Source of the DNA: Chitinophagales bacterium
GTDB lineage: Bacteria; Bacteroidota; Bacteroidia; Chitinophagales; LD1
DNA: 64,000 nucleotides
NCBI GenBank assembly: GCA_016786765.1
Contig: JAEUUZ010000046.1
Location: 1 to 64,000, forward strand
Direction: 5' to 3'
A program made the translations under genes and the position numbers. Shown in pieces: positions 1 to 6,029 of the stretch. The notes under the pieces are model-generated. The model had not been told where the DNA came from and searched no databases. It saw nothing but the letters and a program-made list of their open reading frames with translations. The number at the start of each line of letters is the position of its first letter. The stretch's first letter is position 1.

Positions 1-97
1 ATCGTTGATACTTTTTAGATTCCATGCAACAAAGTTAATTTTGGTAAACTGTTGCGTTAAGTTCTTGAACTCGGGAATGTTCAAAGCCGCTTGCAAC
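1..97 (-). other. End of window inside a further cassette; possible gene start
   Basis: This short stretch lies downstream (minus strand) of repeat site 1 and would be the beginning of the next cassette, which runs off the window. On the minus strand an ATG at 25-23 opens a frame (M-E-S-K-K-Y-Q-R) that is still open at base 1, so a partial gene may start here; eight codons are too few to judge. Bases 75-95 are identical to 2584-2604, the matching position beside repeat site 3, so two cassettes share the same leading sequence. Confidence 0.3.
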
Positions 98-221
98 TAA
101 CGTTTTGCGGCTGTTGCGGTGTGCGGGATTTGGGTGAATAATTTTGATTTTTAGTGCAATTTAAAAGTAACTCAAATTTGCCAATGAAGCAAACTGCCCG
201 CATAACGCAAAACCGCTGTTA
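98..221 (-). repeat. attC-like repeat, site 1 (124 bp)
   Basis: First of three repeats of exactly 124 bp, each opening with TAAC-GTTTTGCG and closing with CGCTGTTA on the plus strand. The two ends fold on each other: the left arm to about base 130 pairs with the right arm from about base 197, sharing TGCGGG and GCG blocks, with an AT-rich centre. It lies just downstream of the DUF262 gene stop at 323, as an attC site lies after a cassette gene. The outer arms differ from sites 2 and 3 while the length is kept. The variable right end GTTACCGG (218-225) is complementary to CCGGTAAC at 2007-2014. It fits the GTT...AAC core of integron sites but not the full RYYYAAC/GTTRRRY consensus. Confidence 0.75.
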
Positions 222-322
222 CCGGATGCCCTATTGTCCAAAAGAAGCGGTTTCGTTTAATGTTTGCTATCAGTATGTTCAAGACGATTAACCCTCATTG
301 CACTGTCTATAAGTATTTGTAG

Positions 323-1321
323 TCACTTTTTAATTACGTACTTTCTAAAAAGTTCGCTCCTTATGACTCTTGCTTGTCTGCTGTTTGTTCCCGAATACAT
401 ATTTGAGTAATATAGTGAAAACTCGTTCGTTTGCTTGTCCTCGTTTTTGTTTTCTAAAACTACTTTTTCAAATTCAACTAAGTTTGGAAGCAAGTCAGCA
501 ACTCTTGTATCATGAAAGAACAATTCTACCACTATTGTGAAAAAGTTAGACTTCCGAAACCAAATTGAATCGTCCTTTAATTCACTCGTAAGAATATCAA
601 TAATCACAGTTGAAAGTAATTGTTTCTTTTCTTCTAAGTTGGGATATTCTGAATTGAATTTGGCGATATATTTTTCAACTTCATTGTCTCTCGTAAAGTA
701 ACCACCTTCTTCAATAGTTGCTAAGACAAGCAGTATGAAATGAAGGTCTGCCATACGCGTTAGTTCACTTTCACTAAAAATGTCAACCTTTAACTCCTTA
801 TTCTTAATTATTTCTAAAATGTCCTTTGCACAACTAATAAACTCACCATTGTAGATGGCTTTGTTAATTTCAATTGCTGTCAAAGTAAAATTTGTTGAGT
901 TTATTCTTTTAAAGATTTCAATAATTGTTTCTGGACTTGCGTCCTTCAAATCACGAACTGTAACATCATAATTTAGAAAATCAGTTTGGTCTTCCTTACC
1001 TAAGTCTTTAAACTTAGGAATATTCTTTTCAAACTTCCAATTCCCTTCAATATATCTTTTAATTGTGGTAATTCTTTGTTGACCATCAACAATAACATTC
1101 TGTGTCGCTAAAGTATCAAGGTTGATACCTTTTTGTGAAATATAGATTTCAGGAAATGGAAACCCGTCCAAGATAGTTTGAATGAACTTCTCCATGTGAG
1201 TCGGTGTCCAAACAAAATCTCTTTGGAATTCTGGTTGTAGTATCAATTCTTCTCTTTGAATTTTCCCAATCAAATCTGAGATTGATTTTTTGTCTGGATG
1301 TGCTGGAATTTGCTTCGCCAT
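323..1321 (-). CDS. DUF262 (GmrSD N-terminal, ParB/Srx-like) protein
   Basis: A 332-residue protein whose first 100 residues match the DUF262 family, with the signature V-D-G-Q-Q-R-I-T-T at residues 78-86 (DGQQR at 79-83) after the conserved LQPEFQRDFVW segment. DUF262 is the ParB/sulfiredoxin-like domain found in the GmrS half of the type IV restriction enzyme GmrSD and in many phage-defence proteins. No C-terminal DUF1524 HNH nuclease motif is visible; the last 230 residues are helical and unassigned. It follows the nucleotidyltransferase-like gene with one base between stop and start, so the two are probably co-translated. It sits inside a repeat-bounded cassette. Family assignment is firm; a defence role is inferred. 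Confidence 0.85.
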   Translation of the reverse strand: MAKQIPAHPDKKSISDLIGKIQREELILQPEFQRDFVWTPTHMEKFIQTILDGFPFPEIYISQKGINLDTLATQNVIVDGQQRITTIKRYIEGNWKFEKNIPKFKDLGKEDQTDFLNYDVTVRDLKDASPETIIEIFKRINSTNFTLTAIEINKAIYNGEFISCAKDILEIIKNKELKVDIFSESELTRMADLHFILLVLATIEEGGYFTRDNEVEKYIAKFNSEYPNLEEKKQLLSTVIIDILTSELKDDSIWFRKSNFFTIVVELFFHDTRVADLLPNLVEFEKVVLENKNEDKQTNEFSLYYSNMYSGTNSRQARVIRSELFRKYVIKK

Positions 1322-1322
1322 A

Positions 1323-1934
1323 TTATATACTTTTTATTTTAGTTGAAATTTCTTCAATTGATGAACGGTAATATTTTTCTGCGTAATAGTAATTCTTGAA
1401 TAAACCACCTTTCACAATGTAGTTTCCAACTTCTGATTTAGAATGTGAAATACTTTTAAAAAAATCGTCCCAATTTTGTTTTAGCTCTTTGAATTCGGTT
1501 GTATTCTGTGGAAGTAAATCCGGTCTCATCCAACCCATCACAAAATATCTCAAGAATTTTTGATACTGTATGAACTGGTCATTCGTTAGTCTAATTTTTT
1601 GGGTTCGGATTTGATATTGATATTCACTTACAAGCTCATAGAAATTATCAAACAGCCTTTCATTAAATAAAACCACATCAATATCGCTGTCAAGACTGAA
1701 CTTAGTAAACTTATAGGGACTGAATCCAAACTTTGATGAGCCGACAATCATTACTTCAAAGAATCCGATCTTAAATTGGTCTGCGATTCGCTTTCTGAAA
1801 TGGTAGTATTCATTCTCTCTATTGTCAAATACAACAGGTATACCATGAAAGAAATGTTTCTGGGTGAACATGCATTTGTCATCTTCGTTAGATAAGTTCA
1901 CAATTTCTTGTCTGTAGTCCTCAATGCTTACCAT
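1323..1934 (-). CDS. Nucleotidyltransferase-fold protein, partner of DUF262 gene
   Basis: A 203-residue protein with a Pol-beta-type nucleotidyltransferase signature: GSSKFG at residues 65-70 followed by SDIDV at 83-87, the G-S...D-x-D pattern that binds metal and nucleotide. It resembles minimal nucleotidyltransferases and synthetase-like proteins used in toxin-antitoxin and defence systems, but the flanking sequence is not one I can name. It is the first gene of a two-gene unit and stops one base before the DUF262 start. No signal peptide or membrane segment. The metal site looks intact, so activity is plausible; the substrate is unknown. Confidence 0.65.
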   Translation of the reverse strand: MVSIEDYRQEIVNLSNEDDKCMFTQKHFFHGIPVVFDNRENEYYHFRKRIADQFKIGFFEVMIVGSSKFGFSPYKFTKFSLDSDIDVVLFNERLFDNFYELVSEYQYQIRTQKIRLTNDQFIQYQKFLRYFVMGWMRPDLLPQNTTEFKELKQNWDDFFKSISHSKSEVGNYIVKGGLFKNYYYAEKYYRSSIEEISTKIKSI

Positions 1935-2010
1935 ATTTCATTAATGTCTTTTTTAAAATTTTTGTTCATAGTATGAATGTTTATAGTCAGCAGTCCCCAA
2001 GGGTTTCCGG

Positions 2011-2134
2011 TAACGTTTTGCGCGTTTACGCTGTGCGGGATTTAGAAGTTTGATTTTCATAATTAGTTACAATTTAAATCTAACTGAAATTTTCGAATGA
2101 AGCAAGTTGCCCGCATAGCGAAAACGCGCTGTTA
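2011..2134 (-). repeat. attC-like repeat, site 2 (124 bp)
   Basis: Second 124-bp repeat, differing from site 3 at only about eight positions, most of them in the AT-rich middle. The outer arms (GCGCG-TTTACGCTGTGCGGG against the complement of CCCGCATAGCG-AAAACGCGC) would form a long stem with bulges. The left end CCGGTAAC (2007-2014) pairs with the right end of site 1, and the right end GTTATGTGC (2131-2139) pairs with the left end of site 3. It lies between cassettes A and B. Confidence 0.75.
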
Positions 2135-2610
2135 TGTGCTGGCGGAGCTTTTGTACATTCTTTCGTCCGCTTTGCGTCTGCGTCCGTTAGTCATTTTTTG
2201 TCAGCGATTTTGTAAGTCGTTTTATTTGTCTGAAAGCAGAGAATAGCGAATTTATTTTCATAACTCATTTGTCTGCCGATAAGTTGTCTGGTTTGAATTG
2301 TTTGTTGGTTAGTCATTTGCGTTTTTTGTCATCGAATTTTGCGTTCCCAAGCCCTAAAAATCAAAATCTCAAAAAAATCGTCATGGAGCCGATACAAACG
2401 CTTACAAATATTTGCTACTTGGATCGCGTCCAGTTGTCATACTGTCGATGCGTCCTGTTTGTAAAATTGTCTTTTTCAAAACTCAAATTCTCTCGTGATT
2501 TAGCCGCGAAAAAATTTGTCATTTCATTCGTCAAAATAGTCAATGAAATCAAGTGTTTTTCGTCAAGATTATCATGAATGTTTGAATGTTCAAAGCCGCT
2601 TGCACATAAC
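2131..2610 (-). mobile_element. Cassette B, apparently non-coding
   Basis: A 480-bp unit between sites 2 and 3 with inverted ends GTTATGTGC (2131-2139) and GCACATAAC (2602-2610); the match continues after two bases with GCGG and CTTT. No convincing gene: the plus-strand frame 2269-2577 runs against the cassette orientation and has no recognisable domain. A 41-codon minus-strand frame (2316 to 2191, ATG to TGA) has the expected orientation but no other support. The sequence is rich in GTC/TTGTC on the plus strand. It may be a decayed, regulatory or RNA-encoding cassette. Confidence 0.5.
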
Positions 2611-2730
2611 GTTTTGCGCGTTTACGCTGTGCGGGATTTAGAAGTTTGATTTTCATAATTTGTTACAACTTAAAGCTAACTCAAATTTTCCAATGAAGCA
2701 AACTGCCCGCATAGCGAAACCGCGCTGTTA
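2607..2730 (-). repeat. attC-like repeat, site 3 (124 bp)
   Basis: Third 124-bp repeat, placed 76 bp after the stop codon of the exported protein encoded at 2807-3358. Its left end pairs with the right end of site 2 and its right end GTTAGCAGT (2727-2735) pairs with ACTGCTAAC at 3399-3407. Near-identity to site 2 within one array resembles the homogeneous repeats of sedentary chromosomal integrons. Confidence 0.75.
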
Positions 2731-3407
2731 GCAGTTGTGCCTTTTTCGTCACTTTTTAGTGACAAAAGCATTTAATGCAAATCTCACAATTCACTTGTCA
2801 AGCTATTTAATGTTCTACAAGTATTCTAAAACGAGTTTGTCTTTCGTCTGTCAGAATTGAAATTATGTAAATACCATTCGTCCAATTTTCAATATCTACT
2901 ACAATAGAATTATCTGTGTCTTTTTGAAGGTAACAACATGTCCCTTTTGTGTCATGTATGGAAACAATGGATTTAGATTTTGGAAATTTAATTGTTAGCG
3001 ATTTTGTCGATTGTAAATAGTCAGGTTTTAGTTCATTCTCGTATTTGTCAGTTAACCCAGTAAAGTAGGTATTAATTGTCCTGCAAATTGAATCAGCCGG
3101 AGCTCCGGGCATCGGAATTCCATATACACACATGTTGTAAGTTTTAGTACTGTCATATGTGTGTGTAATAGTGTCTCGTCCAATTTCTATTAGCGTTTGA
3201 CCGTCACCGAATACCCAATAGTATCCTTCATAAAATAGTCCCATTTTCGTCACTTTGAAGAATACAGTACGTCCATTTGTTTGGCTAATAAAGTCAATTT
3301 GTGCAGATAAGAGATTGCTAAAAAAGAATGGGATTATAAGTAGAATTAACTTTTTCATAGTTATTTTTGAGTTCTCATTTTTCGTCTCCGAGGGCATTAC
3401 TGCTAAC
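2727..3407 (-). mobile_element. Gene cassette C (T9SS-exported protein)
   Basis: A 681-bp unit bounded by GTTAGCAGT at 2727-2735 and ACTGCTAAC at 3399-3407, with a further TGCC/GGCA match after a two-base gap. It carries one minus-strand gene followed by site 3. No 124-bp repeat lies on its promoter side; instead a different hairpin begins at 3401. This is therefore the first cassette of the array, the position next to an attI site in an integron. Confidence 0.6.
2807..3358 (-). CDS. Secreted PKD-like protein with T9SS sorting domain
   Basis: A 183-residue exported protein. The start is set at the ATG at 3358 because it opens directly into a signal peptide (M-K-K-L-I-L-L... ending near S-A-Q); the frame extends 13 codons further upstream without benefit. 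Residues about 40-90 hold a PKD-like pattern (YWVFGDGQT and a HTYDSTKTY block). The last 70 residues resemble the T9SS type A C-terminal sorting domain (sorting signal, ending near NGIYIISI...RFRILVEH). It should be delivered to the outer surface by the type IX machinery. It is the only gene of cassette C. Confidence 0.7.
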   Translation of the reverse strand: MKKLILLIIPFFFSNLLSAQIDFISQTNGRTVFFKVTKMGLFYEGYYWVFGDGQTLIEIGRDTITHTYDSTKTYNMCVYGIPMPGAPADSICRTINTYFTGLTDKYENELKPDYLQSTKSLTIKFPKSKSIVSIHDTKGTCCYLQKDTDNSIVVDIENWTNGIYIISILTDERQTRFRILVEH

Positions 3408-3487
3408 TAGCATATACCCGATACAAACCTTCGCTCATCCACCCCAAACTGGTGCGCTTTGCGAAGTTGTCTATCGTTTTGGTATAT
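3401..3487. repeat. Hairpin beside the array: attI-like site or terminator
   Basis: An imperfect inverted repeat unrelated in sequence to the 124-bp repeats. ATATACC (3412-3418), CGATA and CTTCGC (3429-3434) face GCGAAG (3461-3466), CTATCG and GGTATAT (3481-3487) around a 26-base loop. The cassette-end AAC (3405-3407) lies inside a small palindrome TGCTA-AC-TAGCA (3401-3412). The remaining bases up to the Fic stop at 3598 hold no gene. It could be the primary insertion site, a differently built cassette site belonging to the Fic gene, or a transcription stop for Fic. Confidence 0.45.
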
Positions 3488-3597: not shown

Positions 3598-4551
3598 CTA
3601 TATTTTCTTGTATTGCGTTGTCTTTTTTTCTCCATATCGCTCTAAAATATGCATATCTACACCGTTCTTTAAATCTCTACTCGCAGTGGCACTCGAAATT
3701 TCAGCAAAAAAGTTCATGTATTCTTTTCTGGTAAATACGCCATCCATTGTTCCTAAAAATATACTCAGCCTATCTATCTCATTCAGCTTTTTTGTCCTTT
3801 GTTGTAACAACTGATCAAGCGATTTATCGATTATACCCAGCATATATTCAATAAATATTGTCGATTTACCCGCTTTGTCCGATAGCGCTAGAGCCTCGTA
3901 ATAAGAGGATTGATTATTCGAGATGAGCGATTCAAACGGTAAAAATTCAAATAATGGATACTCTTTCATTAAAATTAATGTCTGCCATAATCTTCCCACT
4001 CTACCGTTCCCATCCATAAATGGATGTATAAATTCCATTTCATAATGGAAAACACAACTTTTTATTAACGTTAACTCCGATTGGTCTTTTAAATACACGA
4101 AAAGATCTTTCATCAACAAGCTAACATTAGTGTGCGGTGGTGCAACGTGCGCTATTTTCGAACCCTTTACAATCCCTACACTTTGGTTTCTGTATTTCCC
4201 GGGTTGTTCAACCAAACCTTTCATTAATAGATTATGTGCTTTTAAAAAGTCCTGCTCCGATGTATGTCGCAGCACACTTAGTTGCTCATAAACAACAAAT
4301 GCATTTAATACTTCTTTAATGTCTTTTGCTGGTCCAACAACTCTTTTGTTTTCAAGCAATGCAGTTATCTGTTCTTCCGATAGGGTATTACCCTCTATGG
4401 CTAAAGATGATTGTATAGTCTTGATTTTATTCTGTTTTCGCAATTTTGGATTTTGCCTAACCAACATTTTGGCATTTACTTCTCCAATTTTTATCGAAAT
4501 GGAACTAATAAGCTGAAGGGACTTAGATGTAATTTCATATGGTGGTTTCAT
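3598..4551 (-). CDS. Fic family protein (AMP-transferase type)
   Basis: A 317-residue Fic protein. The catalytic loop HPFMDGNGRVGR is at residues 176-187, with the catalytic His176 and the phosphate-binding GNGR intact. An N-terminal inhibitory helix motif S-x-x-x-E-G (S49-LAI-E53-G54) marks the class whose self-inhibition is built into the N terminus. Residues about 260-310 form a winged-helix segment (TASRDLKNG), common in this subgroup and possibly DNA-binding. Fic enzymes usually transfer AMP from ATP to a protein hydroxyl; the target is unknown. It lies between the recombinase (51 bp upstream) and the cassette array, on the same strand. A perfect palindrome sits 14 bp before the start. 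Confidence 0.9.
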   Translation of the reverse strand: MKPPYEITSKSLQLISSISIKIGEVNAKMLVRQNPKLRKQNKIKTIQSSLAIEGNTLSEEQITALLENKRVVGPAKDIKEVLNAFVVYEQLSVLRHTSEQDFLKAHNLLMKGLVEQPGKYRNQSVGIVKGSKIAHVAPPHTNVSLLMKDLFVYLKDQSELTLIKSCVFHYEMEFIHPFMDGNGRVGRLWQTLILMKEYPLFEFLPFESLISNNQSSYYEALALSDKAGKSTIFIEYMLGIIDKSLDQLLQQRTKKLNEIDRLSIFLGTMDGVFTRKEYMNFFAEISSATASRDLKNGVDMHILERYGEKKTTQYKKI

Positions 4552-4602: not shown

Positions 4603-5640
4603 TCATAAATAATCAAAGGGCGATACAATCCGCTGAATACTCTTCGTACTCACATGCGTGTAAATCTCCGTAGTCTTACTACTCCTATGCCCCAAAATCT
4701 CCTGAATGTACCGCAAATCCGTCCCGCTCTCCAACAAATGAGTCGCATAACTGTGCCGCAACCAATGCAACGTCACCGGCTTCGTAATCTTCACTTTCGC
4801 CAAAGCCTGCTTCAAAACCAACTGCAAACTCCGCGCATCATAAGGCTCCCCGGGCTCCTGACCTTCAAAAATCCAAACCAACGGCTTATAACTTTTATAA
4901 TACTCCCCCAAAAGATCCAACACCCGCACCGATAATGGCGCAATCCTGTCCTTTCGCCCCTTAGCCTGCCGAATAATCACCACCCCACGTACCGTATCAA
5001 TATCATTCGGCTTCAAACTCAGCAGCTCCCCGCACCGCAAACCACAACTGTAAATCATCGATAACATTACGCGGTGTTTCAAATTCCCATGCGCCTCCAA
5101 AATCAATTTCACTTCCTCCTTACTCAACACATTCGGCAACAACTTCTGCCGCTTCGGTCTATGAATCAACTCCGGATTCATCTTCGACTGAAACACAATC
5201 CCAAAAAACAACTTAATCGCATTCACAATCTGATTCTGGTACGAAGTCGATAACTTATTCGCCAAAATATATTCGTTATTATAACGAATCACATCCTGCT
5301 CCGTCAAATCCTCCACCGCCCGCTCGTTGTAAAACACCAAAAACGACTTCAACGCCTCCGTATACGTCTTAATCGTACTCTCACTATATCGCCTCGAACA
5401 CAACCACTGCCTAAACCGCTCCACCTGGTCCACATGCCCCGCACTAAACCGCACCTCCTCCGGCAACCTAAACTTCGCCCGGTAAAATGGCGTATCCGGC
5501 AAATGCCAAGCCCCCATCGAAGCACTCCACCGCGCGCCCTCCAACAGCTTTATCCGCGCAATCAACGCCTTGTCCCGCTCAAAATAAACCGCAATCCGCC
5601 TTTCACCACGGTGCGTCACCAACTTTGCCTGCCATTTCAT
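4603..5640 (-). CDS. Tyrosine recombinase with N-terminal extension
   Basis: A 345-residue tyrosine recombinase with all catalytic residues visible: Arg202 (CGLRCGE), Lys228 region (AKGRKDR), His292 and Arg295 (HWLRH), His318 (LGHRS) and the nucleophile Tyr327 (EIYTH). It is longer than XerC/D (about 300) because of an extra N-terminal domain of about 65 residues with spaced tryptophans (W38, W45), followed by a SAM-like core-binding domain (about 70-155). The C terminus ends in VSPFDYL, recalling the end of integron integrases, but the extra IntI-specific segment before the HxxR box is absent. It is on the same strand as, and upstream of, the Fic gene and the cassette array, so it is the natural candidate for the array recombinase. 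The cell Xer function is provided separately by the gene at 34601-35500. Confidence 0.85.
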   Translation of the reverse strand: MKWQAKLVTHRGERRIAVYFERDKALIARIKLLEGARWSASMGAWHLPDTPFYRAKFRLPEEVRFSAGHVDQVERFRQWLCSRRYSESTIKTYTEALKSFLVFYNERAVEDLTEQDVIRYNNEYILANKLSTSYQNQIVNAIKLFFGIVFQSKMNPELIHRPKRQKLLPNVLSKEEVKLILEAHGNLKHRVMLSMIYSCGLRCGELLSLKPNDIDTVRGVVIIRQAKGRKDRIAPLSVRVLDLLGEYYKSYKPLVWIFEGQEPGEPYDARSLQLVLKQALAKVKITKPVTLHWLRHSYATHLLESGTDLRYIQEILGHRSSKTTEIYTHVSTKSIQRIVSPFDYL

Positions 5641-6029
5641 GAACTGTCCAACATTTTCAAATGCACTTTAATACTTTGGGCGTGATATCGGGCTTTTCGT
5701 TCCAATCTTTGCCAATAAGAATCGGCAAAGGATTTCCACTGCAATCCCGCACGCGAAGAGGCCTACCACAAGCCCCTCTAACCACTGCAAAACTAGTAAA
5801 ATCAAGTCCCCTAGTCGAAAGCAAACGACTAAAACCGACAACAAGCAATTACACTAATAATTTGCATTTCAAGTCCCACCCCTTGGAGGGATTTAGGGAG
5901 GTTTTCTATACAAGTCCCCGTTCCATCAAGCCCCCCTTTCCATCCAGTCTCCCCACCCGATGCCTCTATAACGAACAGTTTTCAGTCCCTTCTTCCAAAA
6001 ATCCTCAAAAATTTCTTTGCTTTGCGCTC
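5641..6029. other. Gene-free C-rich intergenic region
   Basis: 389 bp between the divergent recombinase and DUF3822 genes. Reading frames pass through it on both strands, but their translations are low-complexity and lack any domain. It contains small hairpins (CTTTGCC...GGCAAAG near 5706-5730; TAGTCG...CGACTA near 5814-5833) and several AAGTCCC-type blocks, including one next to TTGGAGGGATTTAGGGAGG near 5871-5902. Such blocks look like a dispersed Bacteroidota intergenic repeat, but only one region is available here. Both promoters must lie inside it. Confidence 0.5.

Follow-up and report, generated by a model that had tools for sequence, protein, structure and literature searches.

A probable variant class of chromosomal integron-like platform in a Chitinophagales bacterium

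What kind of system is the repeat array that opens a 64,000-nt stretch of a Chitinophagales genome (positions 1 to 64,000 of contig JAEUUZ010000046.1, assembly GCA_016786765.1; hereafter the window)? An earlier note, made from the letters alone, had read positions 98-3407 as an integron-like cassette array with its own repeat family in a Bacteroidota chromosome. Our analysis supports this reading and adds an integrase and an attI site. Both were absent from the earlier note: the tyrosine recombinase gene lies 1.2 kb beyond the region described there, and the attI-like sequence ends at 3407, so that the note's right-hand coordinate is exactly the first cassette junction. We conclude that the window very probably contains the end of a chromosomal integron-like platform at which the integrase lies. 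The integrase of this platform falls in a clade apart from IntI and lacks the I2 region, so we assign the platform to a variant integron class and not to the classical one.

Repeats and cassettes of the array

Three copies of a 124-bp repeat lie where they had been placed (Table 1). Copies 2 and 3, described as having about eight differences, are 94% identical, and copy 1 has an identity of 65% ungapped and 78% gapped. These similarities are far beyond chance (E-values 1e-21 to 1e-59, blastn, host genome). The copies also fold as the bulged hairpins that had been suggested, with z-scores of -1.5 to -3.8 against dinucleotide shuffles. The proposed length fits the core of the repeat; the complementary arms on either side bring the whole site to about 134 bp. 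A search of Rfam gave no family for these sites, the best hit being a chance match to MIR7504 far under its cut-off.

The host genome, 3.62 Mb in 66 contigs, contains 30 copies of the repeat by blastn and about 37 distinct sites by covariance model. All copies within one array share a single orientation. The sites lie mostly on short contigs and at contig ends, as expected if a long repetitive array was broken by the assembly, and we infer one continuous array across these breaks. Position 1 of the window is itself the end of its contig (C9), and the array extends past this end beyond attC-like site 1. Along the minus strand, the integrase comes first, followed by the Fic gene, the attI-like junction and then the cassettes, which run toward position 1.

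Table 1. Features at the integrase end of the array (window positions)
Feature	Positions	Strand	Basis or remarks
attC-like site 1	93..226 (core repeat 98-221)	-	repeat comparison, covariance model
Cassette 3	101..2013	-	GTTACCGGA start, TCCGGTAAC end; attC at 3' end
attC-like site 2	2006..2139 (core repeat 2011-2134)	-	repeat comparison, covariance model
Cassette 2	2014..2609	-	GTTATGTGC start, GCACATAAC end; without convincing ORF
attC-like site 3	2602..2735 (core repeat 2607-2730)	-	repeat comparison, covariance model
Cassette 1	2610..3406	-	GTTAGCAGT start, ACTGCTAAC end; attC at 3' end
attI-like site	3398..3482	-	matches the attI that relatives have about 100 nt beyond the integrase stop codon
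Fic/DOC gene	3598..4551	-	Pfam Fic; between integrase and attI
Tyrosine recombinase (array integrase), 345 aa	4603..5640	-	Pfam Phage_integrase, 129 bits

The region had been divided into three minus-strand gene units, and the outer two stand. Cassette 1 has an ORF for a T9SS-sorted PKD-like protein (2807-3397; TIGR04183). Cassette 3 carries a 203-aa ORF (1323-1934) and a GmrSD_N/DUF262 gene (323-1321; Pfam GmrSD_N). The middle unit contains no convincing minus-strand gene; its best ORF, of 102 aa, starts at a TTG on the opposite strand. Cassette 2 is therefore an ORF-less cassette. Other cassettes of the host genome encode a Shedu protein, a YhcG-type nuclease, an immunity protein, a HEPN protein, a PLD-domain protein, a cation efflux protein and a TonB-type outer membrane protein.

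The two ends of each cassette match. In 22 of 23 testable host-genome cassettes, the opening GTTN6 and the closing N6AAC (9 nt each) are reverse complements, with a match of 9 nt or more; the six variable bases change from unit to unit. Shuffled pairing of starts and ends gave a mean of 1.9 matches and a maximum of 7 in 10,000 shuffles. Chains of cassettes were detected with 9-nt arms, since 7-nt arms were too noisy. The same self-complementarity is found in attC-bounded cassettes, which form circles. The matching ends would be the halves of one hairpin site, joined only in the circular unit.

The AAC triplet represents the sole conserved bases of attC (PMC4792948), and sites of the window genome have it. 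The cassette ends show the AAC/GTT crossover triplet and the complementary R boxes expected of integron members. Beyond the triplet, the earlier note found the core to depart from the RYYYAAC/GTTRRRY consensus of known attC sites. This holds across the cassettes: their starts follow GTTRNNNGYMA, and the classical GTTRRRY fits 6 of 93.

Site folding and cassette movement

The fold of the sites was assessed by covariation. Twenty sites, written as in the circle, were aligned as a two-stem hairpin, in which 95.7% of cells were paired and 10 pairs had changed on both sides. The covariation score was 0.281, as against 0.072 for shuffled sites and at most 0.048 when the alignment was slid. Pairing of the outer stem is 100% by choice, because one row with non-matching ends was omitted; the inner stem was not selected. 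Other genomes supplied 46 unlike site types, in which a site's own arms gave -17.7 kcal/mol and mismatched arms -8.7 kcal/mol; the own arm partner was the best in 38 of the 46. Folding alone showed the bottom strand to be the more stable one in 57 of 62 sites. At the level of folding, then, the sites present the conserved hairpin and bottom-strand preference of integron attC sites.

Cassettes recur as exact units. A 1443-bp mercury cassette, encoding an ArsR-type regulator, a MerT/HMA protein and a small cysteine-rich protein, occurs in seven genomes at an identity of 93% or more. It is the first cassette, at attI, in Flavobacterium denitrificans and lies deep inside the array in Pelobium manganitolerans. 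Its homology begins and ends at G|TT in every one of the seven genomes, with different flanks. More distant copies at four loci (L218, L221, L224, L225) lack G|TT edges, and one at a fifth (L219) has another attC. A megablast search found no copy of this cassette in plasmids. A 190-bp ORF-less cassette stands in two contexts within the host genome (contigs C32 and C58), and the HEPN cassette gave no copy in 150 relatives. Movement of exact units between sites and genomes, a mark of integrons, is thus seen here, and at least one cassette has spread between genera. The earlier note asked whether the repeat recurs in arrays with unrelated genes and held that constant neighbours would speak against its reading. 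The repeat does recur in such arrays, its neighbours vary across genomes, and the flanks of the mercury cassette change each time.

These results bear on a rival explanation, a palindromic repeat of the REP, MITE or IS-end kind that disperses by itself between genes. Such an element would suit the many copies, the hairpin fold and two lone copies that the covariance model places on contigs C13 and C34. It is already contradicted by the single orientation within each array, by ends that pair cassette by cassette and by whole gene-plus-repeat units that move with exact edges, and its probability is negligible.

The array integrase, its attI site and its relatives

The array integrase has a XerA/XerD-like core (profile match to XerA). 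It scores 200 bits against the integron integrase model TIGR02249, under the cut-off of 265. The RKHRHY residues of tyrosine recombinases are in place: an alignment of 52 proteins shows no variation at R202, K227, H292, R295, H318 and Y327. Neither the array integrase nor any of the 52 aligned relatives has the IntI-specific I2 region; integrase residues 241-272 (about 31 residues) face residues 174-247 (about 73 residues) of VchIntIA (2a3v). This additional domain (I2/patch III) is the field's test for an integron integrase (PMC9668308; PMC2426708). By this test we do not count the array as a member of the integrons, although, judged by its sequence, it works like one. An AlphaFold model of the protein (pLDDT 85) has 2a3v as its best PDB match by E-value, followed by XerA, with modest TM-scores.

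An extra N-terminal domain of about 65 aa precedes the core, its first 60 or so residues arranged as beta-beta-alpha-beta-beta-alpha. It has no significant Pfam or PDB match; the best in the PDB is the SMARCAL1 HARP domain (E 0.87). Residues 1-65 (window 5446-5640) bear a GARWS...WHLPD signature, and 6 of 26 members give weak DUF5710 matches. Just upstream of the integrase gene and on its strand lies a Flavo-1 RNA (RF01705; window 5682-5759, minus strand). Flavo-1 RNAs also lie just upstream of the integrase in two relatives, on the opposite strand (L048, 9845-9919; L065, 9791-9869).

An unrooted tree of 65 recombinases, which has long branches, places the attI-bearing integrase family in one clade (100/99) beside tyrosine recombinases without attI. 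Family and neighbours join IntI on one side of a split from Xer (100/99); IntI itself forms a separate clade (100/100). The grouping with IntI and the structural match to VchIntIA would both be expected if this were a classical IntI integron whose integrase has diverged. The separate, monophyletic IntI clade, the missing I2 region, the TIGR02249 score and the R-box consensus all argue against such divergence. So does a covariance model built from host-genome sites only: it made 66 matches in ten family loci, all downstream of the integrase and 64 of them on its strand, and none in eight classical IntI integron loci (L194-L201). A diverged classical integron is therefore unlikely, and a variant class remains our reading. 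The host genome holds no classical IntI above the TIGR02249 cut-off. Within its GTDB phylum, IntI passes the cut-off in 105 of 396 genomes, only one of which belongs to the window's order.

The attI site is a recurrent partner of this integrase. Of 78 loci, 54 have the motif TATA[AT][AG][CT]NAGTT no more than 300 nt beyond the integrase, against an expectation of 0.008 per locus, and the 2.19 Mb of family loci (both strands) contain it only 60 times. Between loci with similar attI sites, identity drops from 1.00 at AG|TT to about 0.24 within four bases, cassette consensus positions being excluded. An inverted repeat lies upstream of the motif, and its letters vary between genomes. The forms seen include GCGAAACAAACC, GTATGA, GTCTGA and CGCTAC, matched within each attI. 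In the window, the first cassette joins at G|TT (3407/3406), reading GGGTATATGCTAG|TTAGCAG. Insertion at G|TT beside an attI next to the integrase, as in integrons, is what most relatives show; unlike them, the window has its attI displaced by the Fic gene. This gene is probably an insertion, because attI directly follows the integrase in most relatives.

GTDB genomes, when scanned for this integrase, yielded 80 loci, almost all of them in Bacteroidota. A strict threshold finds the family in 80 of 395 sampled Bacteroidia genomes (about 20%) and in 49 of 197 genera. Of 44 loci, 18 have a chain of at least three end-matched cassettes downstream of the integrase; upstream, 1 of 41 has one. Some relatives show no chain, their contigs being short or the ends of their cassettes having diverged. 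DUF805 RNA motifs (RF03081) lie inside two arrays (L041, 17409-17476; L112, 14204-14271). One integrase with attI is carried by a 66-kb plasmid of Chryseobacterium sp. SNU WT5 (L160, NZ_CP041688.1), with recurring repeats downstream. The chain scan found no clear chain on this plasmid, though integrase, attI and repeats are present. The locus is possibly a mobile form of the platform.

The XerA/XerD-like core, together with other Xer-type recombinases in the host genome, raises the question of whether host XerC/XerD move these modules, as with the p-dif modules of Acinetobacter plasmids. Modules of that kind are flanked by 28-bp XerC/XerD sites. Here, the sites are hairpins of about 134 nt with a single G|TT junction each, and the arrays, of which a genome usually has one, adjoin the family integrase and attI. 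Movement by XerC/XerD is highly improbable.

Proposed pathway and relation to known systems

We propose the following pathway for the integron-like platform. The recombinase would insert circular cassettes at the attI-like site, at junction 3407 (step 1). Exchange would occur at G|TT, beside the AAC/GTT triplet (step 2). Inserted cassettes would then line up away from the integrase (step 3). Each carries one attC-like site of about 134 nt, with ends that pair N6AAC with GTTN6 and inner arms that form an L-type stem. The bottom strand, as the better folder, is presumably the recombined strand. Sequence comparison supplies the units, their precise boundaries, the compensatory changes in the fold, attI, the link to an integrase family and the intergeneric movement of one cassette. 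Recombination by the array integrase, through circles and a folded single strand, is what we infer from these.

Several points count against this reading. The I2 region, held necessary for IntI, is missing; the R-box bases are off the classical consensus; a Fic gene stands between integrase and attI in the host genome, whose assembly is broken; and some relatives show no chain. A broader proposal is that this is a second functional integron lineage, sister to IntI and widespread in Bacteroidia, which recombines folded single-stranded attC without the I2 helix. An N-terminal DNA-binding domain, possibly HARP-like, might do the work of that helix in part of the family. We give this proposal slightly less than an even chance.

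Survey tools look for IntI together with classical attC. If our reading is true, such surveys overlook an integron-like platform that is present in about one-fifth of Bacteroidia genomes and whose cassettes bear defence, immunity, efflux and mercury-resistance genes. It would also make testable whether hairpin-site recombination needs the I2 helix and how integrons arose from Xer-like enzymes. We found no description of this integrase/attI/attC-like system in the open-access literature on Bacteroidota integrons, a scope that leaves aside subscription papers and preprints. IntegronFinder 2.0 lists a single complete integron in Bacteroidetes proper, that of Salinibacter ruber M1 (PMC9024848). 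The portion consulted of the work on the 'Integron-like' subgroup of simple tyrosine recombinases (Smyshlyaev et al. 2021, PMC8138268) describes no attI, cassettes or Bacteroidia arrays.

XerA/XerD recombinases share with the array integrase their overall fold and the missing I2, but they use double-stranded dif-type sites, have no cassette arrays and are separated from it in the tree (100/99). The IntI integrons of the same phylum, such as that of Salinibacter, share the broad group and the cassette arrays; they differ in having a true IntI above the TIGR02249 cut-off and lie mostly outside the class Bacteroidia. Sedentary chromosomal integrons of the Vibrio superintegron type are likewise built from a tyrosine recombinase, attI and co-oriented cassettes with hairpin sites of about 120-140 nt. 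They have in common with this array the AAC/GTT crossover triplet, complementary R boxes, the bottom-strand folding bias, ORF-less cassettes, and defence and unknown genes. Unlike them, the array has an integrase without I2 that lies outside the IntI clade and bears an N-terminal domain, an R box of GTTRNNNGYMA instead of GTTRRRY, an attI with inverted repeats, and cassettes placed 3' of the integrase gene and in the same direction.
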